Origin: an uncultured Kordia sp.
GTDB taxonomy: Bacteria > Bacteroidota > Bacteroidia > Flavobacteriales > Flavobacteriaceae
DNA length: 64,000 nucleotides
Direction: 5' to 3'
Assembly: GCF_947489565.1 (NCBI RefSeq)
Contig: NZ_CANLEA010000017.1
Span: forward strand, 62,001 to 126,000
A program made the translations under genes and the position numbers. Of this stretch, positions 2-25,271 are shown piece after piece. Below the pieces are notes generated by a model, which saw nothing but the letters and a program-made list of their open reading frames with translations, was not told the origin of the DNA and did no database searches. Position 1 is the first letter of the stretch. Every line of letters begins with the position of its first letter.

Positions 2-3000
2 CACGTTACAGGAACTATAGTTGCTTCTGGAGTACAAGCAAATGCAAAAGGAATGGCTCCGCATGCAAATGCTAGAACAGCCGATTGGAATAATGATAAA
101 GCAGAAGCTACAAATGAAGCTTCTAGTGGAATGATAGTTTCAAATCACTCGTATGGATTTGGCTTTAGAAACCCAAATACAGGACAAGTACAATTACCAC
201 AACACTATTTTGGTGGATATATTGATGAATCTCGCGATTGGGATGAAATCTTGTTTAATGCACCAAATTATTTAATGGTTGTAGCAGCTGGAAATGATGG
301 AAATGATAACACAGCAAATAACAATCCTACTGGTGGATCAGGATTTGATAAACTAACAGGACATTCAACATCTAAAAACAATTTAGTAGTTGCCAATGCA
401 CAAGATGCTAATATTGATGCCAATGGAAATTTAATTTCGGTATCTATCAACAGTTCTAGTAGTGAAGGTCCAACAGATGATTTCCGTATCAAACCAGATA
501 TTACTGGAAATGGAACAGGTGTATATTCTACGTATGATAATAGTGATACTGCGTATAACTCTATTTCAGGAACATCGATGGCATCACCAAATGTAGCGGG
601 TTCTGTATTGTTATTACAACAACATTACAATAACACAAATAGTTCTTTTGCAAGAGCAGCTACTATCAAAGGAGTTGTTTTACATACTGCGGATGACGCA
701 GGAGCTTCAGGACCTGACGCTGTTTTTGGATGGGGATTAATGAATTCAAAACGTGCAGCAGAAGCAATTTCAAATAATGGAAGCGAATCTAAAATAGAAG
801 AGTTAACCTTAACTTCTGGACAAACGTATACAATTACAGTTGATTCGGATGGGACAAATCCATTATTAGCATCGATTTCTTGGACAGATCGTGCAGGAAC
901 GTCTAATACTACGGTAAACTCTACGACTCCTGTATTAGTAAATGACTTAGATATTAGAGTAACTAAAGGTGGAACAACATATTTACCTTATGAGCTAACA
1001 GGTGCAACGACAAGTGCACAACAAGATAACAATGTAGATCCGTTTGAAAGAGTAGATGTATCTGGAGCTTCTGGAACCTATATAATTACGGTAACAAACA
1101 AAGGATCTTTAGTAGGTGGAAGTCAAGACTTCTCACTAATTGTAACTGGATTAACAGGAACGCCAGTAGTGTGTAATGCAACTACACCAACAGGAGTAGC
1201 TACTTCAGGAATTACAACTTCAGGAGCAGATGTAAATTGGACGGAAGTTGCAGGAGCAACTTATGATGTACGCTACAGAGCAACAGGAACTTCTTCTTGG
1301 ACAACAAATGCAGTTACTTCAAATTCTACAACATTAAGCGGATTAACAGCTTCTACATCATATGAAGTACAAGTACGTAGCAAGTGTTCTAGTGGAAATT
1401 CTTCGTACAGTTCGTCTGTAACGTTTACCACAGCAGATGTGCCACCGCTTTGTACAACAACCGTAAATTCATTCCCGTATAGTGAAGGATTTGAATCTAA
1501 TGATGGTTGGACGCAAGTTGGCGGAGATGATGGAGATTGGGTACGAACAAGCGGAAGTACACCATCTTCAAACACAGGACCAACAAGTGCAGCACAAGGA
1601 TCAAACTATTTATTCCTTGAAGCTTCTACAAACGGAAGTACAGGACAAATTGGAGCAAATGCTACTGCAATTTTAGAAAGTGATTGTTTCAACCTTGCAG
1701 GAAAATCTTCAGCTTCATTTGACTTTAAAAATCACATGTATGGAACTGCTGTAGGATCATTAACAGTACAAGGATCTACAGATGGATCTACTTGGACTAA
1801 CTTATGGACTGATTCAGGAAATAAAGGAAACCAATGGAATACAATTTCAGTAAACTTAAGTGCTTATTTAGGTCAGAGTGTAAAACTAAGAATTGTAGGA
1901 GTTACTGGAGATGGATGGTCTAGTGATATTGCTGTAGATGATTTATCAGTAACTGCAGTAGACGCTTCAGCAGATACAGAAGCACCCGTAATTACATTAA
2001 CTGGAGCAGCTACGATTACCTTAACTGTAGGAGACTCTTTTACAGATCCAGGAGCAACAGCAACAGATAATGTAGATGGAAACTTAACTTCAAGTATTGT
2101 AGTAACAGGTTCTGTAAATACTTCGGTTGAAGGAACATATACATTAAATTACAACGTAAGTGATGCGGCAGGAAATGCAGCAACACAAGTTTCAAGAACT
2201 GTAAATGTAAATGCAGCGAGTACTGGAAGTTGTGCAGGTCAAGTATCATCGTTCCCATATAGTGAAGGATTTGAAAATACGTTTGGTGCATGGACGCAGT
2301 CTACAGCAGATGATATTGATTGGAGTATAACTTCAGGAACAACACCATCAAACAATACAGGTCCATCAAGTGCTACGCAAGGAACATACTATACTTTTGT
2401 AGAAGCATCTGGAAATGGAACAGGATATCCTACGAAGCAAGCAATTTTAAATTCTCCTTGTTTTGATTTAAGTGGAGAAACACAAGCTACTTTTGCATTT
2501 GGTTACCACATGTTTGGAGCTACAGATATGGGAAGTATTGCTTTAGAAGCAAGTAATGATGATGGAGCTACTTGGACATCTTTATGGAGTGAGACAGGGA
2601 ATAAAGGAAATTCTTGGCAAACTGCAAGTGTAGATTTAGCTGCGTATGTAGGTGGAACAGTTCAATTACGATTCAACAGAGTTACAGGATCTACATGGCA
2701 AGCAGATATTGCTATTGACGATGTAAGTCTTTCTACTGGTGGCGGAAGCGGACCTTCTTGTTCGAATGTTTCATTATCAATCACATTTGATAATTACCCA
2801 GAAGAAACTAGCTGGCAAATCACAAATAGTGGTGGAACAGTAGTAGCTTCAGGAGGAACGTATGCTTCTCAAGCAGATGGATCAACTTTAAATATTGATG
2901 TTGGATGTTTAGACGACGGATGTTATGACTTTACGATCAATGATACCTATGGTGACGGAATTTGCTGTAGCTTCGGAAATGGTTCGTTTACACTTACAAA

Positions 3001-3364
3001 TAGTGATAGTGGAGCAACCTTAGCTTCTGGAGGATCGTTTGCATCATCAGATACTACAAACTTCTGTTTGACAGCTCCTGGAACAACAGCTACAAGTAAT
3101 TATGTAACCACTACAAGTGATGATAGATTCGGATCTTCTTTTGAAGTTCGTATATATCCAAACCCTGTAAAAGGAGGAACATTAAATGTAATCACCACAC
3201 AAGATGACGCAAGTTATACTATTACAAATATGGTAGGACAGCAAGTTGCAAAAGGAAATGTAAATTCTGGAACTATCAATGTTCAAAAATTACAAGCTGG
3301 TGTGTATATGATTCAAATCAATGCAGGATCGCAGACCGTAACTAAGAAATTTATTAAGCAATAA
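2..3364 (+). CDS. T9SS-secreted subtilisin-family (S8) serine protease, 5' end outside window
   Basis: The reading frame is open from the first base, so the gene begins upstream. The visible protein starts with HVTGT, the second half of the HGTHV(A/T)GT histidine motif, so the catalytic His lies just outside. The oxyanion Asn is in VVAAGNDG (Asn at 293-295) and the catalytic Ser in GTSMASP (Ser at 575-577). After the protease come a P-domain-like beta sandwich (about 790-1150), a fibronectin III domain (1165-1435), a MAM-like domain (1455-1960), an Ig-like DUF5011-type domain (1975-2215), a second MAM-like domain (2230-2735), a Cys-containing beta domain (2760-3080) and a T9SS sorting domain (from IYPNPVKGG to the end). 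It is probably an exported, surface-bound or released protease. Family assignment is sure; substrate is unknown. Confidence 0.95.
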   Translation, partial: HVTGTIVASGVQANAKGMAPHANARTADWNNDKAEATNEASSGMIVSNHSYGFGFRNPNTGQVQLPQHYFGGYIDESRDWDEILFNAPNYLMVVAAGNDGNDNTANNNPTGGSGFDKLTGHSTSKNNLVVANAQDANIDANGNLISVSINSSSSEGPTDDFRIKPDITGNGTGVYSTYDNSDTAYNSISGTSMASPNVAGSVLLLQQHYNNTNSSFARAATIKGVVLHTADDAGASGPDAVFGWGLMNSKRAAEAISNNGSESKIEELTLTSGQTYTITVDSDGTNPLLASISWTDRAGTSNTTVNSTTPVLVNDLDIRVTKGGTTYLPYELTGATTSAQQDNNVDPFERVDVSGASGTYIITVTNKGSLVGGSQDFSLIVTGLTGTPVVCNATTPTGVATSGITTSGADVNWTEVAGATYDVRYRATGTSSWTTNAVTSNSTTLSGLTASTSYEVQVRSKCSSGNSSYSSSVTFTTADVPPLCTTTVNSFPYSEGFESNDGWTQVGGDDGDWVRTSGSTPSSNTGPTSAAQGSNYLFLEASTNGSTGQIGANATAILESDCFNLAGKSSASFDFKNHMYGTAVGSLTVQGSTDGSTWTNLWTDSGNKGNQWNTISVNLSAYLGQSVKLRIVGVTGDGWSSDIAVDDLSVTAVDASADTEAPVITLTGAATITLTVGDSFTDPGATATDNVDGNLTSSIVVTGSVNTSVEGTYTLNYNVSDAAGNAATQVSRTVNVNAASTGSCAGQVSSFPYSEGFENTFGAWTQSTADDIDWSITSGTTPSNNTGPSSATQGTYYTFVEASGNGTGYPTKQAILNSPCFDLSGETQATFAFGYHMFGATDMGSIALEASNDDGATWTSLWSETGNKGNSWQTASVDLAAYVGGTVQLRFNRVTGSTWQADIAIDDVSLSTGGGSGPSCSNVSLSITFDNYPEETSWQITNSGGTVVASGGTYASQADGSTLNIDVGCLDDGCYDFTINDTYGDGICCSFGNGSFTLTNSDSGATLASGGSFASSDTTNFCLTAPGTTATSNYVTTTSDDRFGSSFEVRIYPNPVKGGTLNVITTQDDASYTITNMVGQQVAKGNVNSGTINVQKLQAGVYMIQINAGSQTVTKKFIKQ

Positions 3365-3391
3365 TAACTAGTAAATAAATTTAGAGTGCTT

Positions 3392-3424
3392 AAAAGCCCA
3401 AACGTAACTGTTTGGGCTTTTTTA
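3392..3424 (+). terminator. Rho-independent terminator of the S8 protease gene
   Basis: A perfect 12-bp stem (AAAAGCCCAAAC, 3392-3403, pairing with 3410-3421) encloses the 6-base loop GTAACT and runs into Ts. It lies 28 bases after the protease stop codon. Confidence 0.93.
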
Positions 3425-3547
3425 TTTCTTGTCTTTCCCCGAATCCATCAAACTTAAAAAAGTACAATTCTTAGTCCTTTTTTTGTAGCATACAAAGCTG
3501 CTTCTTCTCTGATCTTTGTAATCTAATAATCGCTCAAATTAAATAAC

Positions 3548-3901
3548 ATGAAATTTATAACAAAAAGAATTCACGCGTTCTTAGATTACCCAGTAGCAAT
3601 CGCTTTAATAGTTTTACCATTTTTATTAAACTTAGGAAGCTCCAATAACATTGCATTCTATTTATCAGTAACAACAGGTGTTGCAGCATTTATTTTAACA
3701 TTGTTGACAAATCATCACTTAGGTGTATTTCGTATCGTTTCTTACAAAATGCATCTGGTTGTAGATTTTGCAGTTGCCATCGTATTCATTACAGCGCCTT
3801 TTATTTTTTCTTTTGAAGGAATAGACGCGTATTACTATTGGATTAATGGAGCTGCGGTACTTACTGTAGTTAGTTTACACAAGCCAGAATTGGCAGTATA
3901 A
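3548..3901 (+). CDS. Small four-helix membrane protein, SPW-repeat-like
   Basis: A 117-residue protein with about four hydrophobic segments (near residues 12-30, 38-56, 67-86 and 93-110). The two halves look alike: each starts with a basic stretch and a helix pair (RIHAFLDYPVAIAL, then YKMHLVVDFAVAIVF). That internal repeat and the size fit SPW-repeat inner-membrane proteins, whose role is unknown; the assignment is by resemblance only. The gene stands alone. A near-consensus -7 box (GATCTTTG, 3511-3518) lies upstream, and it converges on the lipoprotein gene with a 4-base gap. Confidence 0.8.
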   Translation: MKFITKRIHAFLDYPVAIALIVLPFLLNLGSSNNIAFYLSVTTGVAAFILTLLTNHHLGVFRIVSYKMHLVVDFAVAIVFITAPFIFSFEGIDAYYYWINGAAVLTVVSLHKPELAV

Positions 3902-3905
3902 AAAC

Positions 3906-4670
3906 TTACTTTTGCGCATTTATAAATGTTGGGTCAAAGGTTTGTAGTGTAAGATTTAATAGTGCATAAAACTCATCAGCGGTACCATCAATAGATCTTC
4001 TGACCCAAAAGCCAGGACATGTAAATGCTTCATATACATCATAACCATCTTTTTCCAAAGAATTTGCAAAATCGCGAAATGTTTCTTGCAAATAGAATGA
4101 TGGTCCTTTAATGCGCCCATCCATATATTCGTGTTTTTTAGGATCTGAAATAGCAGCCAAATAACCAGCCATAATTTCTTCATTATTTGCGGCTACTTTG
4201 TATGAAAGGTAATAAGTGCGCAGGTATTGTTTTAGCTCTTTATCGTAATGTGCTTGCATACTTTTAACAAAGCTTTCATTTTCGAATACAAATCGAAGGT
4301 TGCCTTCAAGTTTTTTGATAAATAGAGGATTGTAATAACCAAACGTGGTTTTACTTTTATAGTTTGGAGTATCCGTATGTGGACTTTTTAGAAATACACG
4401 TTCGCCAACAATGGTTTCTAATGCAGAAATACTAAAAAATTGGTCATATAAAGCATATCTTCCACGAACACCGCTTTCAGGAATATATGTTTCTGGTACT
4501 TCTTTGTAAAAATCTACAGACGTTACCGTATTTTCCCAGTTGTCAACAGTTGCATTAGAGTTTTTGCGTAGTTCTTCAATAGTTGTTTCGTTTTTATATA
4601 TTGATTTTTGCAAAGAACAGGCTGCAATACATAAAAATAGTATACAAATAAAGGACGTTTTCGAATTCAT
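3906..4670 (-). CDS. Lipoprotein of unknown function
   Basis: A 254-residue protein with a lipoprotein signal peptide: hydrophobic stretch, then lipobox IAAC with the lipidated Cys at residue 18. The mature part is mixed alpha/beta with many aromatic and charged residues and no motif I recognise. Residues after +1 (SLQKS) give no clear sorting clue. The gene is monocistronic, convergent with the SPW-like gene. The export call is good; the function is unknown. Confidence 0.8.
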   Translation of the reverse strand: MNSKTSFICILFLCIAACSLQKSIYKNETTIEELRKNSNATVDNWENTVTSVDFYKEVPETYIPESGVRGRYALYDQFFSISALETIVGERVFLKSPHTDTPNYKSKTTFGYYNPLFIKKLEGNLRFVFENESFVKSMQAHYDKELKQYLRTYYLSYKVAANNEEIMAGYLAAISDPKKHEYMDGRIKGPSFYLQETFRDFANSLEKDGYDVYEAFTCPGFWVRRSIDGTADEFYALLNLTLQTFDPTFINAQK

Positions 4671-4764
4671 AGAAATAGTTTTGAATAGAACGAATATAGT
4701 TAAATCATTGATTTTTAATAGATAATTCAGGTTTTCTCGTAAAGTTGTTTTAAAACTCTAATCA

Positions 4765-5478
4765 TCAAACATGCAGCATTTCATCAGCTTCTAATAAGGG
4801 TTCATTTCGCAATCTGAGAAGAATCTGCGCAACAGCGATAACATCTTTTTCACAATAAGTAATAATACGATCAATATCGCCTTCTTCATAAAAAACATTG
4901 CGTACTTGACTGCCATCAATATCATCTTTTGGAGAAGGAATACCCAATATTTTGGTCATTAAACGCAACGAAGTATAATGTTTATAATCGCCAAATTTCC
5001 ACAACTCCATGGTATCTAAATGTGCAATTTCCCAAGGCTTTTTACCAAATAAATTCAATTTAAAAGGCAAGGTAATTCTATTAATAATCATACGACGCGC
5101 TATATATGGAAAGTCAAATTCTTTTCCATTGTGTGCACAGAGCAAGTGATGCGGTCTGTTAAAATGGGTTTCCAATAGAGCTTTAAACTCACGTAACAAT
5201 TGTTCTTCTTCTCCGTGAAATGAAGTTGTTCTAAATTGTCGAACATCACCTTTATTGGCAAAATAACCCACCGAAATACAGATGATTTTACCAAATTCTG
5301 CCCAAATTCCGGCACGATCGTAAAATTCATCCGCTGTAAATTCATCTTTGCGTTGATAGGTAGTTTTTTGTTCCCAAAGCGTTTTTTCTTCCGCATCCAA
5401 ATCGTCATAATTCGGATACTCAGGAACTGTTTCTATGTCTAGAAACAATACGTTTTCTAAATTAATTTTCTGTAACAT
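4765..5478 (-). CDS. PolB-like 3'-5' exonuclease (DEDDy, DNA_pol_B_exo2 type)
   Basis: A 237-residue RNase H-fold nuclease without a polymerase domain. Exo motif I is FLDIETVPEY (Asp14, Glu16), motif II lies in AHNGKEFDFPYIARR, and motif III in TYCEKDVIAVAQI (Tyr and Asp of the DEDDy set). All metal ligands appear present. Stand-alone proteins of this type are common in Bacteroidota and thought to act in DNA repair or end trimming; the substrate has not been shown here. It sits 37 bases downstream of the DUF4442 gene on the same strand and may be co-transcribed. Confidence 0.9.
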   Translation of the reverse strand: MLQKINLENVLFLDIETVPEYPNYDDLDAEEKTLWEQKTTYQRKDEFTADEFYDRAGIWAEFGKIICISVGYFANKGDVRQFRTTSFHGEEEQLLREFKALLETHFNRPHHLLCAHNGKEFDFPYIARRMIINRITLPFKLNLFGKKPWEIAHLDTMELWKFGDYKHYTSLRLMTKILGIPSPKDDIDGSQVRNVFYEEGDIDRIITYCEKDVIAVAQILLRLRNEPLLEADEMLHV

Positions 5479-18919: not shown

Positions 18920-20146
18920 TCAAGAAATAAAATTGAACAACCATGTATATAGCACCATCATTCCTAACACGATGCCGCCAACCAACATGATATCTGGTGT
19001 AAATAATATGCCAAAGAAACCTACACAAAGCATGGCAATTCCGTAGCAAAGTCCAATCATGCGTGTTTTTTTGGAACTTCGTAAAAAAGAACCTGGTAAT
19101 GGTAAAATAGTACAAAAACAGGTAAATCCCCACAATTTATACATTGGATTGTTGAATGTAAGAAATGCAATCACGGCTAAAATTCCCGCTAAGGTCAATC
19201 CGCCAAAAGCGTAACCACTATATTTTTGATTCTCTGTGAGTAAATATTTCCCATACGAATCGCCCAATAAAATAGTATTGGATAAGGCTTCCATAATCCA
19301 TCCGCCAAGGACAAAAATTAAATATAAAATCACTAACGGAATGATTAAAAAGGTTAAATCTGAAGCTTCTAATACTTTTATACCCAAACGATAGGTTATA
19401 TACAAACCAATAATAAAAACCCACTGATTTCGCGATGATTGTTTGCTAATCCAAAAGGCATATTTTAAATACCATTTGTATAATAAATTCTTGGATTTTA
19501 TAGCTGTTGCCATACCTTCGCGTGCGTATTGCGCATTTGGATTGAGTTGCAAGGCTTGTTTGAAATGATGCAAGGCTTTTTTAGTATCGCCATTTTCCAA
19601 TGAAACCCAACCAACATTAGCATGTGCATAATCATCTTCTGGATTGTCATATAAAATATGTTCTACTGTTTGATTGGCTTCTTCTTTGCGATTGAGCCTG
19701 GTTAACAAACGTGCACGCATATTTAAACAAGTTGAATTTTTAGGATCGAGTTGCAAACCTTCGTTGACAAAATGCAACGCTTCTTCAAACTTCTTTTTAT
19801 CCATCAACAACGCACCTTTAAAACCAAAATAAACTGCTTGATACGGATCAAGTTCTATACTTTTATCTGCCAAATCAATAGCATCTTGAAGCTTGCCTAA
19901 ACGAGATGCAATTTGTCCTTTTAAAAAGAATAAATTCCCTTCATTAGGGGTTTCTTGAAGTAATTCGTCAATTATTTGAGTAGCTCTCTCATAATTATTT
20001 ATATTAAAAAAACACAGCGCCAAATAGTATTTGCTAGGATAATTATAAGCACTTTCCGAAACCGCTTCACTCAAATAGGTAATAGCTTCTTGAAAACGTC
20101 CTAATTCAAACAATTGTACACCTCGCAAATGGTTTTTTGACTCCAT
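18920..20146 (-). CDS. TPR protein with polytopic membrane domain
   Basis: A 408-residue protein: tetratricopeptide repeats across about residues 1-205 (for example AVYFGFKGALLMDKKKFEEA) and then about six hydrophobic segments in residues 230-405. Its ATG overlaps the stop of the upstream AAA ATPase gene by one base (TAATG), which implies translational coupling. TPR regions bind partner proteins; since the ATPase also has TPRs, the two probably form a membrane-attached complex (inference). It is the last gene of the five-gene minus-strand run that starts at 24438. Confidence 0.9.
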   Translation of the reverse strand: MESKNHLRGVQLFELGRFQEAITYLSEAVSESAYNYPSKYYLALCFFNINNYERATQIIDELLQETPNEGNLFFLKGQIASRLGKLQDAIDLADKSIELDPYQAVYFGFKGALLMDKKKFEEALHFVNEGLQLDPKNSTCLNMRARLLTRLNRKEEANQTVEHILYDNPEDDYAHANVGWVSLENGDTKKALHHFKQALQLNPNAQYAREGMATAIKSKNLLYKWYLKYAFWISKQSSRNQWVFIIGLYITYRLGIKVLEASDLTFLIIPLVILYLIFVLGGWIMEALSNTILLGDSYGKYLLTENQKYSGYAFGGLTLAGILAVIAFLTFNNPMYKLWGFTCFCTILPLPGSFLRSSKKTRMIGLCYGIAMLCVGFFGILFTPDIMLVGGIVLGMMVLYTWLFNFIS

Positions 20147-21438
20147 TACTTCTTGATGTTTAAATAGGCTAAAATATCATCGTACAATCCGCTATCATTT
20201 GCATACAAAGCATAGTTTTTAGAAGAAACAAACCATTCTTTGGTGCTTGGTTTTATCTTTTTTACAGCTTTTAAAATATCTTTTGTGCTTAATGGTTTTG
20301 GAATGCCATCTTTAAAAGAAGCTTCTAGTTTTTTCTCAATAGCAACATCAATAGCCGCTTGAATATCGGCTCCAGAAAATTCTTTGGCGGCTTTGGCCAA
20401 TGCCATATAATCAATGGTTTCTGTAGGTTTTTCTTTGAGATGAATATTAAATATAGCGGCTTTGGCTTCTACATCGGGCGGCGATACAAAAATGATACGA
20501 TCAAAACGTCCTGGACGGCGAAATGCAGGATCTAAATGCCACGGCGCATTGGTAGCACCTAAGATTAAAATTCCATCGTTATCTGCGTCAATTCCGTCCA
20601 ATTCTGCCAAAAACTGATTGATTACGGTTCTTCCTGAGGTTTTATTGACATCGTTTCTATTCGCGCCAAGCGCATCAATTTCATCTATAAAAATGACACA
20701 CGGCGTATTTTTTCGAGCTGTTTCAAAGATTTCGTGCAAGTTTTTCTCCGAATTTCCAATCCACATATCCAAAATATCATTGATACCTACACTGATAAAA
20801 TTCGCATTAATTTCTCCAGCAGTCGCACGTGCAATATGTGTTTTTCCACAACCTGGCGGACCATATAATAGAATTCCGCCACCAATTTTTTTACCATACG
20901 CTTTGTACAAATCTCGATGTTCCAAAGGTTTGATAATTTTTAAATCAATTTCCTTTTTAATATCCTCCATGCCGCCAATACTGGCAAAATTAGTCGTTGG
21001 CTTTTTTAGGAAAGACAAACCGTCTTCATCGATAAAATCAGGTTCGCGCCTGGTATTTACTTTTAAAGCATTGTCAAAATCTTCATTTTCATAGTTTGCA
21101 TCCAATTCAAGCAACTCTTTGTAGGTTTCTTGCGCATCGCTATAATTTTCTTGGTTGATTTGACAGTAACATAGTAATTCTAAATATTTCTGTTCTGAGT
21201 TTAGTTTGATAATTTCTTCTAGCAACACTTCGGCAGCAGTAACTTTTTGCTGTTTATAGAAACAACTTGCCAATTCGTATTTGGCTTCCAAATGATTTTT
21301 ATCCAAATCAATAATTTCAATGAATTGTTGCGCGGCTTCATCAAAACTTCCTTGTTGCATGTATAGTTTTGCAATTTGAAATTTGAGTGGAATATTATTG
21401 GGGGAAAATTGTAATGCTTCTAATAAAGTTTCTAACAT
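20146..21438 (-). CDS. TPR-AAA+ ATPase
   Basis: A 430-residue protein with N-terminal TPRs (about 1-130) and one classic AAA domain (about 150-400): Walker A GPPGCGKT, Walker B CVIFIDEIDALG, sensor 1 ILGATN, and arginine fingers in RRPGRFDR. These mark it as an FtsH/p97/spastin-clade AAA rather than a DNA-binding type. There is no protease domain and no membrane segment. It starts 30 bases after the LytTR regulator gene. A remodelling or unfolding role on TPR-bound clients is likely; the client is unknown. Confidence 0.92.
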   Translation of the reverse strand: MLETLLEALQFSPNNIPLKFQIAKLYMQQGSFDEAAQQFIEIIDLDKNHLEAKYELASCFYKQQKVTAAEVLLEEIIKLNSEQKYLELLCYCQINQENYSDAQETYKELLELDANYENEDFDNALKVNTRREPDFIDEDGLSFLKKPTTNFASIGGMEDIKKEIDLKIIKPLEHRDLYKAYGKKIGGGILLYGPPGCGKTHIARATAGEINANFISVGINDILDMWIGNSEKNLHEIFETARKNTPCVIFIDEIDALGANRNDVNKTSGRTVINQFLAELDGIDADNDGILILGATNAPWHLDPAFRRPGRFDRIIFVSPPDVEAKAAIFNIHLKEKPTETIDYMALAKAAKEFSGADIQAAIDVAIEKKLEASFKDGIPKPLSTKDILKAVKKIKPSTKEWFVSSKNYALYANDSGLYDDILAYLNIKK

Positions 21439-21468: not shown

Positions 21469-22203
21469 TTATCTAAAAATACGATAGTTTTTGAGAAAAG
21501 TAGCTTTGTATTTTCGGCTTAATATTACTTTTTCGCCATTTGTGAGCAGTATTAGGTTGTCTTCCGGATATACCATTTTTATTTTTTCAAGACTGACAAT
21601 CATATTTCGATGCACTCTGATGAATTGATTTTCTGGAAATTCTTTCATCAATTGTGTTAAGGAAGTATGTAAGAGAAACGTTTCTTCGTCTGTTTTCAAA
21701 TTACAATATTGTCCATCTACCGAAATCGCATAGATGTCTTTTCGGTTGATTTTGATCAAAGCTTTGTTCTTTTTCACAAAGATGGCTTCGTTGTAATGCA
21801 CAGGAATTTTTTGAGAAAATGCACCTTCTTGCGCTGCCGTTTTTTCGATGGCCAATTCAATCGCAAATAGTAATTCTAATGGATTGTAAGGTTTAATCAA
21901 ATAGTTATGTGGATTGGTGTTTTTAGCACTTTTAAAAATAGAAGCTTCGAGTGAACTTGTAATAAAAATAAAAGGTTTGTCACTGCCAATTTCGTTGGCA
22001 AACGCAATTCCTTTTGGTTCGCCTTCCACAAAAATATCAAGCAAAGCAATGTCAAAATCGACACGATCTAGCAATGCGATACCTTCTTGCAGAGAGGAAG
22101 CTACACCCACAATTTCCATATTTTGCAACAACAGTGTTTCTTTTAGTATCTGCAAGTCTTTTTCTTGGTCTTCAAAAACCAACACTTTTACCTCATTTGT
22201 CAT
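21469..22203 (-). CDS. LytTR-type response regulator
   Basis: A 244-residue regulator: receiver domain (about 5-120; acidic pocket FEDQEKD, phosphoacceptor Asp in IALLDIFVEGEP, Lys in YLIKPYNP) and a LytTR DNA-binding domain (about 140-240; FIRVHRNMIVSLEKI). It sits 1 base after the histidine kinase gene, so it is the kinase's cognate regulator. LytTR proteins bind direct repeats upstream of their targets; none was identified. Confidence 0.95.
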   Translation of the reverse strand: MTNEVKVLVFEDQEKDLQILKETLLLQNMEIVGVASSLQEGIALLDRVDFDIALLDIFVEGEPKGIAFANEIGSDKPFIFITSSLEASIFKSAKNTNPHNYLIKPYNPLELLFAIELAIEKTAAQEGAFSQKIPVHYNEAIFVKKNKALIKINRKDIYAISVDGQYCNLKTDEETFLLHTSLTQLMKEFPENQFIRVHRNMIVSLEKIKMVYPEDNLILLTNGEKVILSRKYKATFLKNYRIFR

Positions 22204-22204
22204 A

Positions 22205-23932
22205 TCATTTCATGGTTGTTTGTAATGTTATTGAAACAGTTGTGCCTTTATCTTTAGCGCTTGAAATTGAAAAAATTCCACTATTTTTTTCTGTGAGTTC
22301 TTTACTGAGTTGTAGTCCCAAGCCTGTACTTGTTTTTCCTGTACGATCTTTGGTGGAAGTCGTTTTGTTTTGGTTGAAAAATGCCGTGTCAAATCCACAC
22401 CCATGATCTATGATTTGCAGTGTGCATGTGGTAGAATCTTCTATAGCTTTGATATTGATTTTTCCTTCTGAAGATGAAAATTTGATAGCATTGTCCAATA
22501 CATTTCGCAATACAATTTTTAAGGAATTTGCGTCTGCGTATATAAAAGTTGCTTCGTCAATAGTTGTATTGATCTCAAGTTTATGTTCTTCAATAATTGG
22601 TAAATAATCGTACAACACTTGTTCAATGATAGAAGATAAAGGTAGTTTTTGTGGATGGAAAAGTAATTTATCTTGATGTTGTAATGTCCAATGCAGCGTA
22701 TTATCGATTAGTAAAGCAGTGTTTTTTGCCAAATCATATCCTTCTGTAAGTGTTACAAGTTCTTTTTGATCTTGTGCAGATTTTTCTTTGCGTTGAAGAA
22801 TGTGATATAGTTTAGACTTTAACGTATGCACAGGTGTTTTAAGATCGTGTGTTACAATGGAAAACAGTTTGTTTTTGGTGGCATTTAACTCTTTGATGAT
22901 TTTATTTTGCTTGCGCATTCTGATATAAAAATAGCTTAAGAATGCGAGTAAAACTGTTGCTAAAATTGCAATAATAATATAGAAGAATTTTTCCTGTTGT
23001 TCGGCTTTTAATTTCTCTTCGTTTACTTGTTGCGCAACTTTTTTGTCATTTTGTGCGGTTTCCCAGATTTGATCTCTGTTCCAAATGCTATCCTTAATTT
23101 TTTCATATTCTTTTCGATAGCGCAATGCTTTTGCAACGTCTTTTCGATTTTCTTCTACTACAGAGAGATTCAACAAAGCATCTTGCAATACGGTCAAATT
23201 ATTGGCGCGTTTTGCATAGGCTAATCCTTTTTCAAAAAAGGGAATTGCCAAATCGTCTTTATATTGCTGATAATACAAATTGGCAATATCCAAACTCGAT
23301 TGTGCTAAACCTAAGGTATCTTTATACTGTTGATTCAAGCGATAACTTTCTAATAGGTTTTCCTGTGCTTTTTCATACTTTTCTTCATGTAAATAACACA
23401 AGCCTAAGTTATGAAGGTTGATTCGCTTGCTTCTTTGGTTTTCAGAACTTATGGATTTTGATTTTTCTAAAACTTCAATACCTTTTGAGAATTCTTCTTT
23501 GTCTTTATAAATTACACCTAATAAACCATACTGATTCTCTAAAGAAGAACTTTGAAATGTATGTCCAATTTCAATGGCTTTTTGAGCGCTTATTGAAGCA
23601 TCATTTAACAGCTTTTTCTGATACAAAATACGTGCTTTAATGGTATGCAGAATATACAGTTGTTTTTTATCTTGAATTTGATTTTTCGATATTAATTTTG
23701 TGATAAATATATAAGACGAATCTATATTTTTTTGAGAAAAGTAATAATGTAATTGATGAAAATCATCTTTATTAAATTTATCAAAATAAGAAGCATCTGT
23801 ATTGCAAACAGGACAACTTTCCAATATTTCTTTTTTAAAACTTTCGGTATGTTGCTGTTTCTGTGCTGTCGAGAAGCTTATGAATAAAAGACTGAAATAT
23901 AAAATATATGGACCTTTGTAGTATGATTTCAT
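22205..23932 (-). CDS. TPR-containing membrane sensor histidine kinase
   Basis: A 575-residue kinase: signal peptide (ending near FSTAQ), an early CPVC motif (ESCPVCNTD), periplasmic TPRs (about 60-300), a transmembrane helix near 315-338 (FYIIIAILATVLLAFLSYFY), a HisKA domain with H-box FSIVTHDLKTPVH, and an HATPase_c domain (N-box VLRNVLDNAIKF, G1 DHGCGFD, G2 TGLGLQLSKEL). Pairing HisKA with a LytTR regulator is less usual than pairing with LytS-type kinases, but is seen in Bacteroidota. Its gene lies 8 bases after the RGTVTTS-tail gene. Confidence 0.95.
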   Translation of the reverse strand: MKSYYKGPYILYFSLLFISFSTAQKQQHTESFKKEILESCPVCNTDASYFDKFNKDDFHQLHYYFSQKNIDSSYIFITKLISKNQIQDKKQLYILHTIKARILYQKKLLNDASISAQKAIEIGHTFQSSSLENQYGLLGVIYKDKEEFSKGIEVLEKSKSISSENQRSKRINLHNLGLCYLHEEKYEKAQENLLESYRLNQQYKDTLGLAQSSLDIANLYYQQYKDDLAIPFFEKGLAYAKRANNLTVLQDALLNLSVVEENRKDVAKALRYRKEYEKIKDSIWNRDQIWETAQNDKKVAQQVNEEKLKAEQQEKFFYIIIAILATVLLAFLSYFYIRMRKQNKIIKELNATKNKLFSIVTHDLKTPVHTLKSKLYHILQRKEKSAQDQKELVTLTEGYDLAKNTALLIDNTLHWTLQHQDKLLFHPQKLPLSSIIEQVLYDYLPIIEEHKLEINTTIDEATFIYADANSLKIVLRNVLDNAIKFSSSEGKINIKAIEDSTTCTLQIIDHGCGFDTAFFNQNKTTSTKDRTGKTSTGLGLQLSKELTEKNSGIFSISSAKDKGTTVSITLQTTMK

Positions 23933-23940
23933 GATGTAAT

Positions 23941-24438
23941 TTATGAACCTGAACCTGAACCTGAACCTGAAGCTGGTGGAGGTACGGATGTAGTTACGGT
24001 TCCTCTGGAGAGTTTTTTACCAATATTTCCGTTGCCATATGGTTTCATATCATATTCAAAAACAACATGTATGGCAGTATCATCATCATCTTCATTGAGA
24101 ATGTCGTACTGAATATCAATAGACCAAAGTTGGAAGGTAGAAGCTGCATTCGGTGGAATATCTTCTTCCCATTGAATACTTATTGTTCTTGCTTGTATAA
24201 TACCCGCATGCGTTTTAACTTTATTTCTAGCTTCTGGTGGAACAATAGTAATTTTTTCAATACCACTTGGAATGATAGCAATAATGCGTACAAAATACAA
24301 GTTTCTTTTTCCATCTTTAAAAAACTCTACCAATGGATTTTCTGGTCGAACACCAAAGTCTCTTAATATAAAAGAGGATACATTTTCAGCATCGTATGTA
24401 TATGATACATAGTTGTTTTCTCCTGTTTTCATTTTCAT
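23941..24438 (-). CDS. Unknown protein with KLSRGTVTTS motif and Gly-Ser tail
   Basis: About 165 residues from the ATG at 24438; a GTG at 24462 and ATGs at 24453 and 24432 are alternatives. No signal peptide. The body is beta-rich (for example ARTISIQWEEDIPP, FQLWSIDIQYDILNEDDDD). It ends in KKLSRGTVTTSVPPP followed by alternating Ser-Gly encoded by a hexanucleotide repeat. The ten residues KLSRGTVTTS recur in the 44-aa GG peptide gene about 1.1 kb upstream. It is the first gene of a likely operon with a histidine kinase (8-base gap), its regulator, and two TPR proteins. It could be the signal protein or the modified product of that system; this is inference. No family recognised. Confidence 0.75.
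   Translation of the reverse strand: MKMKTGENNYVSYTYDAENVSSFILRDFGVRPENPLVEFFKDGKRNLYFVRIIAIIPSGIEKITIVPPEARNKVKTHAGIIQARTISIQWEEDIPPNAASTFQLWSIDIQYDILNEDDDDTAIHVVFEYDMKPYGNGNIGKKLSRGTVTTSVPPPASGSGSGSGS
23944..23970. repeat. In-frame hexanucleotide repeat coding a Ser-Gly tail
   Basis: Four tandem copies of TGAACC plus a partial fifth (TGA) encode Ser-Gly repeats at the very C-terminus. The unit is 6 bases, so slippage would change tail length without breaking the frame. Confidence 0.85.
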
Positions 24439-24607
24439 ATGGTTAGTTAACATTAGTATCACAATTTAGCTAAAAAAGAGCTTGTTTTTACTTTTTCATT
24501 GGAAAATACATCTTGTACTCTGTTACAAACGTCTTGTGATATAAAAATTACCTTTCGTATAAGTTTTTCTCAAATCCGACGCTGTGCAAGCCATCTTTGT
24601 ATCAACA

Positions 24608-24640
24608 AAAGGCGGAAGCGAAAAGCCTAAAATAGAGTAG
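24608..24640 (+). promoter_or_regulatory. Shared leader element, copy 1 (upstream of 86-aa gene)
   Basis: Pattern AAAGG...GAAAAgCCT...AAATAGAGTAG, starting 58 bases before the ATG. It matches the elements upstream of the beta/gamma-crystallin and aminotransferase genes. A near -7 box (CATCTTTG, about 24593-24600) just upstream suggests the element lies at the start of the transcript. AGG and CCT could pair. Confidence 0.6.
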
Positions 24641-24665
24641 CGATACATTTTAAAAATCAACCATT

Positions 24666-24926
24666 ATGGCAAGTATTCAAGTACAAAACAACTCAGACGT
24701 AAAAGTATTATTTTCAGTTTTCAAAAAAGGAGATGCAGGAATTCCTTTTTCTACACAGTGGATTGATCCAAAAAGTTCACATTCTATGGAAATAGGAAAT
24801 TTTAAAGAAGTTGGTGTGGGTGCACAAACACAAGAAGGTGGAAGATGGGTTTCAGATCCTAGAGTCGGGCAGACTTTTACAGCAAATCAAACCTGTGTTC
24901 TTACAATTTCTAAGACCGTAGGATAG
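24666..24926 (+). CDS. Small beta-rich protein of unknown function, 86 aa
   Basis: A soluble protein without signal peptide; alternating hydrophobic residues (SIQVQNNSDVKVLFSVF, then FTANQTCVLTISKTVG) suggest a small beta sandwich. No family recognised. It has its own leader element and terminator. The same leader element precedes a small beta/gamma-crystallin gene at 31822, so the two may be co-regulated. It is divergent from the RGTVTTS-tail operon. Confidence 0.75.
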   Translation: MASIQVQNNSDVKVLFSVFKKGDAGIPFSTQWIDPKSSHSMEIGNFKEVGVGAQTQEGGRWVSDPRVGQTFTANQTCVLTISKTVG

Positions 24927-24940
24927 TAAAAAACATTCCT

Positions 24941-24985
24941 AAAAATCGTCAATGCTTTTAATTACTAAACGTATTGGCGATTTTT
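24941..24985 (+). terminator. Terminator after the 86-aa gene
   Basis: AAAAATCGTCAAT (24941-24953) pairs with ATTGGCGATTTTT (24973-24985) with one G-T wobble, 14 bases after the stop. Its right arm is identical over 17 bases to the hairpin at 25369-25385. Confidence 0.85.
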
Positions 24986-25136
24986 ATTTGAGTTTTTCCA
25001 TCGCAGTAATTTTTCCTTTATTAATAGCTTAAACTTTTTAGATGCGGTTGCCTTGAGTAGTTTGTGCTAGTTTTATTTAAAAAAAAGCAGAAAAACTCTA
25101 ATAGTTCTCTGCTCTTATTTTTTAGTTTGAACAATA

Positions 25137-25271
25137 TTAAGAAGGAGGAATCCCACTAGTTGTTACCGTTCCTCTGGATAATTTTGTACCACCACCTTTA
25201 ATAATTTCAGGTTTTTTGACAATAGCATTGAAAAATGCATTTATTTGTTTTTGCTTTTCTTGTTTTTTCAT
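25137..25271 (-). CDS. 44-aa GG peptide sharing the KLSRGTVTTS motif
   Basis: Translated by hand from ATG at 25271-25269 to TAA at 25139-25137. The leader is basic and helical (QEKQKQINAFFNAIVKK), then PEIIKGGG (Gly 26-28) and the tail TKLSRGTVTTSGIPPS. There is no Cys. KLSRGTVTTS (25155-25184) is identical to residues near the C-terminus of the protein at 23941, with five of ten codons different but synonymous, which shows protein-level selection. It is probably a precursor peptide cleaved after Gly-Gly, with a Thr/Ser-rich product. A near -7 box (AATATTTG) lies upstream on this strand. No maturation gene is adjacent. Confidence 0.75.
   Translation of the reverse strand: MKKQEKQKQINAFFNAIVKKPEIIKGGGTKLSRGTVTTSGIPPS

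Follow-up and report, generated by a model that had tools for sequence, protein, structure and literature searches.

Several known bacterial systems are close to the locus described here. In the RRNPP regulators (Rap, PlcR, NprR, and AimR), a TPR domain serves as the receptor of a short peptide that is cut from the C-terminus of its precursor, and these receptors are cytoplasmic and see re-imported peptides. The streptococcal competence circuit is built around ComD, a polytopic kinase of the HPK10 type, and ComE, a LytTR protein. The architecture of FimS, in turn, consists of TPR repeats and a histidine kinase. Double-glycine peptides in Gram-negative bacteria were reportedly treated by Dirix et al. 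in 2004. To our knowledge, no peptide pheromone has been established in Bacteroidota, and we know of no ligand for the group of TPR sensor kinases that forms the subject of this study.

The available parts of the literature on streptococcal ComABCDE and BlpABC-RH describe a peptide with a double-glycine (GG) leader, the ABC transporter/protease ComAB, a histidine kinase, and a regulator acting on direct repeats (PMC5295010). Bacteroidales harbor double-glycine bacteriocin or RiPP clusters with a GG leader or a C39 transporter together with HlyD (PMC4573289, PMC10352776, in the sections at hand). One of them, BGC5, contains a histidine kinase and a response regulator, and some of the clusters carry TPR-like genes, according to the accessible part of the same source (PMC10352776). 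Our analysis of a flavobacterial genome and its relatives points to an undescribed peptide-signalling system in flavobacteria, as judged from sequence comparisons.

The shared motif and the TAG protein family

The window, i.e., the whole stretch of 64,000 nucleotides that was analysed, contains both open reading frames that a previous sequence-only reading had singled out, namely, a 44-aa and a 173-aa frame on the minus strand (Table 1), and the ten residues KLSRGTVTTS are indeed identical in both. The two copies are unlike at 8 of 30 nucleotides and at five of ten codons, and the accompanying claim that selection acts on the amino acids, not on the DNA, is borne out by these differences and by those found in the multi-TAG groups described below. 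A chance match was rejected. A degenerate codon pattern for RGTVTTS has two matches in the whole 6.4-Mb genome, both of them in the window (reversed control: none), and the exact pattern LxRGTVTT has three matches over the 11 genomes of the genus, which correspond to the window pair and the orthologue of the 173-aa protein; counts as low as these place the motif far beyond chance. In the rest of the genus (ten genomes), the exact pattern gave no further match and the tail profile no other short frame with the tail. Among these ten genomes, the orthologue is present in a single relative (E <=0.001); it is 57% identical and ends DPKLSRGTVTTSGTPASVDINSETKCS, and judging from it the window frame likely starts at the ATG 24436-24438 (165 aa) rather than at the GTG.

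A confinement of the motif to the window pair or its locus was also rejected, because a relaxed form ends small proteins at further loci. With a profile of three tails (A1), such protein ends were retrieved from the window genome as well as from other genera. Its successor of 15 tails (A2, E <=0.1) matched 8 of the 11 genomes of the genus, 34 of 397 genomes and 27 of 237 genera of the family sample, and 19 of 395 genomes of the phylum sample, tallies that at this threshold include some weaker chance matches; every phylum-wide match below E 0.017 belongs to the window's own family. About 16 A2 matches with E values of about 0.002-0.1, most of which fall in frames of extreme length (very short or very long), were left out of the wide regions by eye. 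Among the weak matches of the 44-aa frame in the family sample, the 29 loci examined carry no RGT tail and represent mostly unrelated frames. Locus L036 (34% match) was set aside as well; five window proteins including TAG match none of its open reading frames (phmmer, 1e-3).

The name TAG is coined here for the tail, and the family has no prior name. It comprises flavobacterial proteins of 130-339 aa with the C-terminal consensus DPxTSRGT(V/E)TTV. Across the wide regions, 59 tailed proteins exceed 100 aa; in these, the R and the G of RGT are invariant and T is found in 58; the upstream flank has P at -4 in 58, D at -5 in 52 and S at -1 in 54, and downstream T is present at +4 in 58 and V at +6 in 50. 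The motif is terminal in all 59, with the chain stopping 6-29 residues past RGT. The bodies are far more variable. A subset of 21 aligned proteins (18 of the 59 tabulated and three further ones) has a weak common pattern of PPG near the start, PLPPLV and FxIxYD, and a mean column identity of 30%, tail included. No Pfam or NCBIfam model matched any of 11 long tailed proteins at its cut-off (best weak matches E at least 0.03). TAG proteins are devoid of a signal peptide, and a hydrophobic stretch is absent in 58 of the 61 tagged proteins, a set that contains two short peptides. The AlphaFold2 single-sequence model of the TAG protein was useless (mean pLDDT 36.8). A mobile or phage origin was considered on viral contigs, where eight stretches fit the tail pattern and none was confirmed; the Flavobacterium-type TAG protein of L244 has no match in plasmids or phages, and the kinase of this locus has no plasmid match at E 1e-40.

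Table 1. Features of the window that are discussed in the text
Feature	Position	Strand	Remarks
TPR-repeat protein	18920..20146	-	downstream gene, also present in one relative's orthologous operon
TPR-AAA+ ATPase	20146..21438	-	downstream gene, also present in one relative's orthologous operon
Response regulator with LytTR DNA-binding domain	21469..22203	-	Pfam LytTR E 1.9e-19
Sensor histidine kinase	22205..23932	-	TPR domain, one TM (about 319-337), HATPase_c, HisKA-like region, signal-like N-terminus (by eye)
TAG protein	23941..24462	-	173 aa from GTG, ends KKLSRGTVTTSVPPP plus Ser-Gly tail; no Pfam/NCBIfam family
KLSRGTVTTS in TAG tail	23986..24015	-	from sequence
Candidate LytTR site, TAG promoter	24508..24537	-	9-bp direct repeat (8 of 9), 12-bp spacer, ACAAGACGT-N12-ACAAGATGT
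86-aa protein, divergent from TAG gene	24666..24926	+	shares the repeat-bearing promoter region; no family above cut-off
Double-glycine-leader peptide, 44 aa	25137..25271	-	predicted cleavage in GGG (25188-25196), core TKLSRGTVTTSGIPPS
KLSRGTVTTS in peptide core	25155..25184	-	from sequence

The kinase-regulator module and its promoter

The proposal that the motif protein heads a kinase operon was supported. Kinase and regulator are its general companions; the genes for the TPR-AAA ATPase and the TPR protein, conserved in one relative, stand outside the general module. The orthologous operon of this relative (G001) retains TAG, kinase, regulator, TPR-AAA ATPase, TPR protein and the divergent 86-aa gene. 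In the wide regions, which comprise 50 fetched regions and the loci L040, L071 and L072 and were picked by the tail, not by the neighbours, each of the 53 TAG groups has a TPR-sensor histidine kinase as its next gene in the same orientation (spacing -59 to 149 bp), and in 51 of them a LytTR regulator comes after it. The next gene is defined here as the next in a list of non-overlapping open reading frames of at least 60 aa, and a kinase by a phmmer match to the window kinase (E <=1e-5). Two off-pattern loci without this kinase had been left out before counting, namely, L192, whose tail match lies 142 residues from the end of a protein of another family, and L194, which has a tail without DP and no adjoining kinase; with both included, the proportion is 53 of 55. 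The exceptions concerning the regulator are L191 and L071, where a second TAG pair and its kinase precede the single regulator. A kinase match within 1.5 kb was found in all 30 loci examined from the A3 and earlier searches (L214-L242 and L122), four of which repeat the first set (L122, L217, L232 and L237).

The sequence-only reading would have been contradicted by a motif occurring in many unrelated proteins without peptide or kinase neighbours. The opposite was found for the kinase, and most TAG loci have the kinase and no peptide. Flanking genes differ among many TAG loci, with some of them common to related genomes, and because of these differences TAG, kinase and regulator look like a module. 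Within the genus, TAG and the TAG-type kinase co-occur in the same 8 of 11 genomes; of those without the tail, G008 and G010 lack these kinases and G009 harbors the weaker type only. A reverse search from the kinase retrieved 19 kinases of the genus (E <=1e-30), the 15 best of which adjoin TAG genes, and the four weaker ones (30% identity) adjoin small proteins ending P(K/R)RGT(K/V), a shorter relative of the motif.

Several neighbours of these modules deserve mention. At L213 (G000:C5), where the partner protein of the second kinase type ends ...PRRGTKVIIAKLTDED, two GG-leader, cysteine-bearing, bacteriocin-like peptides (3967-4152 and 4186-4413, minus strand) lie past the regulator gene, and another GG frame is located at L209 (446-691); these frames may be targets of the system of the second kinase type. 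Downstream of TAG-kinase-regulator modules of G985 are proteins of the choloylglycine hydrolase family (L247, 1205-2305 and 4873-6039) and a GH64-like beta-1,3-glucanase (L248, 3429-4757), which are possible outputs. In the window genome, three proteins of 204, 217 and 350 aa without a known family, the first two of which look alike, follow the regulator of L071 on the same strand (2373-5008).

In all 53 kinases, the TPR region is followed by a hydrophobic segment at positions within the range of about 299-375, and the H-box SIVTHDLKTP is conserved over the 53; HisKA of the window kinase scores 13.5 bits in Pfam, below the cut-off of 26.9. By a crude threshold, 32 of the 53 kinases pass for an N-terminal hydrophobic segment and the other 21, including the window kinase, fail, and the N-termini of these 21 resemble flavobacterial signal peptides by eye. 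Because of the signal-like N-terminus and the internal transmembrane segment, the TPR domain would be placed in the periplasm. The AlphaFold2 model of the kinase is weak (mean pLDDT 51.4), with the TPR part helical.

The site geometry of LytTR regulators consists of 9-bp direct repeats at a period of 21 bp. Repeats of this period with at least 8 of 9 matching bases are located upstream of 16 of 61 tagged genes, compared with a mean of 7.65 in resampled sequences, and none of 200 first-order resampled sequences reached 16 (largest 15); the period had been picked from 20 scanned periods, among which it ranked highest (next: 11). The repeat sequences differ between loci. In the orthologous promoter of the window site, 7 of 9 bases per half and 6 of 12 spacer positions are kept, and this conservation adds little because the whole aligned region is 83% identical. 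The divergent gene for the 86-aa protein, kept beside TAG in the relative (L040, 8598-8858, minus strand), is a possible target of the system. A small protein of 87 aa is also encoded near a TAG locus of another genus (L247, 2509-2772).

GG-leader peptides, matched tails and their interpretation

The A3 profile (56 tails) has matches in 83 of 338 genomes of the genus of G568, from which 30 loci and six wider regions were examined. Five of these 83 genomes, hence six counting that of the window, encode short frames in which the tail forms the core after a GG leader. They comprise 17 peptides and one fragment in G879, three with starts and a fourth without in G985, five frames of which two have a start in G568, three in G1049 and two in G830. 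All peptides of the five genomes lie inside TAG-kinase-regulator loci, either before TAG or between kinase and regulator, and in all six peptide-bearing genomes the sequence places GG ahead of the core, an example of which is PETSRGTETTVQIG. The window peptide, IIKGGG-TKLSRGTVTTSGIPPS, has the same layout. Five peptides were scanned against the leader models of Pfam and NCBIfam. Those of L244 (17.2 bits) and L183 (17.9 bits) exceed the cut-off of 15.7 of the NCBIfam bacteriocin leader TIGR01847, that of L245 reaches 19.9 bits with Pfam ComC (cut-off 20.4) and 17.7 with NCBIfam ComC (cut-off 50), and neither the L243 nor the window peptide matched a leader model. Three of the five tandem frames of G568, situated at a contig end (L183, 17337-17798), have no in-frame start, reflecting either decay or an assembly artefact in the repeat array.

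The gene order in G985 is C39-ABC exporter, HlyD-like adaptor, peptides, TAG, kinase and regulator; the exporter has 740 aa (PF03412, E 5.2e-31), and the adaptor is above the cut-off of PF13437 and below that of TIGR01843. G879 exhibits the order TAG, kinase, C39-ABC, HlyD-like protein, 17 peptides and regulator, its adaptor being named for its resemblance to the G985 one. The array of G568 reaches the end of its contig, and a similar exporter-adaptor pair is directed towards the beginning of a second contig, with the same 462- and 96-aa genes on the far side as in G985; array and exporter are presumably joined across the contig break. No C39-ABC exporter was seen in G1049 and G830 over the 12 and 16 kb examined, and C39 matches are present somewhere in each of the 16 genomes searched. 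The window genome has four of them, of which two lie in frames of full length (about 740 aa); none is on the contig of the window, and no exporter adjoins the window peptide.

The sequence-only reading was also to fall if the 44-aa frame were not conserved in relatives, and for this one peptide that outcome was literally obtained: the frame was not recovered in the other ten genomes of the genus, the 397 genomes of the family sample contain no convincing match, and the orthologous operon of G001 has no room for a peptide at the corresponding place. A short frame with a similar GG leader (KNPEAIIGGG versus KKPEIIKGGG in the window) and without an RGT core is present in L007 (G120:C32, 1480-1629, plus strand).

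With the real pairing included, 5 of 720 permutations by score and 4 of 720 by identity pair peptide cores and TAG tails as well as the actual loci do, in a small permutation set with some related loci. Only at three of the six loci (window, G568 and G1049) do the peptides obtain their highest score of six with the tail of their own locus; those of G985 and G830 do better with the tail from a close relative (G568 and G1049, respectively), and those of G879 with that of G568. The peptides are thus clearly linked to their locus by type, though not residue by residue.

The tails themselves are matched to their kinase. Five groups with two or three TAG genes per kinase, i.e., all such groups in the fetched regions, form a small set from four genomes of the window's genus. 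The seven residues after RGT are 98% identical within and 56% between groups, a difference that none of 20,000 label shuffles attained, whereas the TAG bodies are at 25.3% within versus 23.4% between groups (3,399 of 20,000 shuffles), again in small permutation sets with some related loci. At L071, for instance, two neighbouring kinases are each accompanied by a TAG pair, one ending RGTITTVKRP and the other RGTVTTVKPT. The comparison shows locus-specific selection on the tail residues, which repeats the codon point of the window pair on new material.

Among the roles that the sequence-only reading had considered for the motif was that of a core peptide read by a sensor kinase. This one fits best, with GG cores in five further genomes and a kinase at every counted locus, and in it the kinase would bind the tail. 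The tail is the likely kinase ligand because of its neighbourhood, the locus-specific tails and its reuse as the sole cargo of leader peptides, and we consider it on balance probable that it represents the ligand of the TPR kinase in a peptide-signalling module. In such a module, a C39 exporter would remove the leader and free a peptide of about 12-17 residues, this peptide or the TAG tail would bind the periplasmic TPR domain, and the kinase would phosphorylate the LytTR regulator, which would then act on direct repeats upstream of TAG and of neighbouring genes. TAG itself may represent a resident or cell-associated form of the same ligand, and its possible routes to a periplasmic sensor are secretion, release by lysis, or proteolysis of the tail followed by export. 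The ligand reading is weakened because TAG has no signal peptide and the sensor is placed in the periplasm, and also because the window peptide was not found in relatives and has no adjoining exporter, and most TAG loci have no peptide.

A role of the tail as a C-terminal export or docking signal of TAG for some secretion route or protease, with a kinase that senses something else, would agree with the lack of N-terminal signals in TAG proteins and with the terminal position of the motif in 59 of 59 tabulated chains. Yet the tail is the only cargo of peptides that already have an export leader and would need no second one, and a matching of tails per kinase is unexpected for a general sorting signal; we regard this explanation as rather unlikely. 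Still less probable is that peptides and TAG are bacteriocin-like effectors or immunity partners whose production alone is regulated by the two-component system: the leaders of bacteriocin type, the C39-ABC and HlyD neighbours and the tandem arrays with variable ends would suit it, but the short, hydrophilic, cysteine-free and nearly invariant core would be unlike a killing peptide, and most TAG loci have the kinase without any peptide. Recent duplication or gene conversion without a common reader is very unlikely as the sole source of shared tails within a locus, since, despite the tandem position of TAG paralogues and the repeat nature of the peptide arrays, about half of the identical tail residues differ in their codons (32 of 62), the bodies within groups are at 17-35% identity, and peptides and TAG proteins have by eye only the tail in common.

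The ligand reading can be extended to a broader scenario, which we put forward tentatively and would ourselves rather doubt than believe. (DP)xTSRGTxTTV might be a flavobacterial peptide language, in which a secreted GG-leader pheromone and a displayed C-terminal tail of cell-borne proteins would both be read by periplasmic TPR kinases. It would constitute a Gram-negative counterpart of ComABCDE that possibly separates 'self, close by or lysed' from 'free in medium', and genomes with several modules would keep private channels differing after RGT.

Comparison with known systems

The sequences SRGTVTT and SRGTET are absent from the text of the open-licence literature, and no TAG-type system is described in the titles and abstract beginnings of the open-licence papers retrieved on Bacteroidota TPR/LytTR kinases, double-glycine peptides and pheromones. 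If true, the ligand reading would provide a ligand for a group of TPR sensor kinases and explain a near-invariant tail on a family with a weakly conserved body. It is directly testable, with putative signal, exporter, receptor and regulator all named together with the ligand residues and a candidate promoter site.

The best NCBIfam match of the window kinase is FimS (NF053520, E 5.7e-45), of which it is not an equivalog (153.7 bits versus a cut-off of 600), and we know of no RGT-tailed partner of FimS. With the RRNPP regulators the TAG system would share a TPR domain as the receptor of a short peptide derived from a C-terminus; it differs in the predicted position of this domain, between a signal-like N-terminus and a transmembrane segment and ahead of the kinase part. 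The Bacteroidales clusters concern modified or putative antimicrobial peptides, and the sections at hand describe neither an RGT core nor a tailed partner (PMC4573289, PMC10352776); the cluster with two-component genes could touch on a related arrangement, as far as the accessible part of its source goes (PMC10352776).

The likeness to ComABCDE extends to the GG-leader precursors, the LytTR regulator (after the kinase in 51 of 53 groups), and one peptide leader just below the Pfam ComC cut-off. One difference concerns the exporter, C39-ABC with HlyD, which was seen next to the array in two genomes, beyond a contig break in one more, and in none of the remaining three. The flavobacterial system also differs in its occurrence in Bacteroidota and in its sensor, which consists of a TPR region, one internal transmembrane segment and HATPase_c, and is not of the polytopic ComD type. 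Moreover, an unrelated protein family bears the putative pheromone core as its C-terminus. By this analogy, the TAG arrangement would work like ComABCDE, but is no member of it by kinase type and would possess an extra, protein-borne form of the signal.
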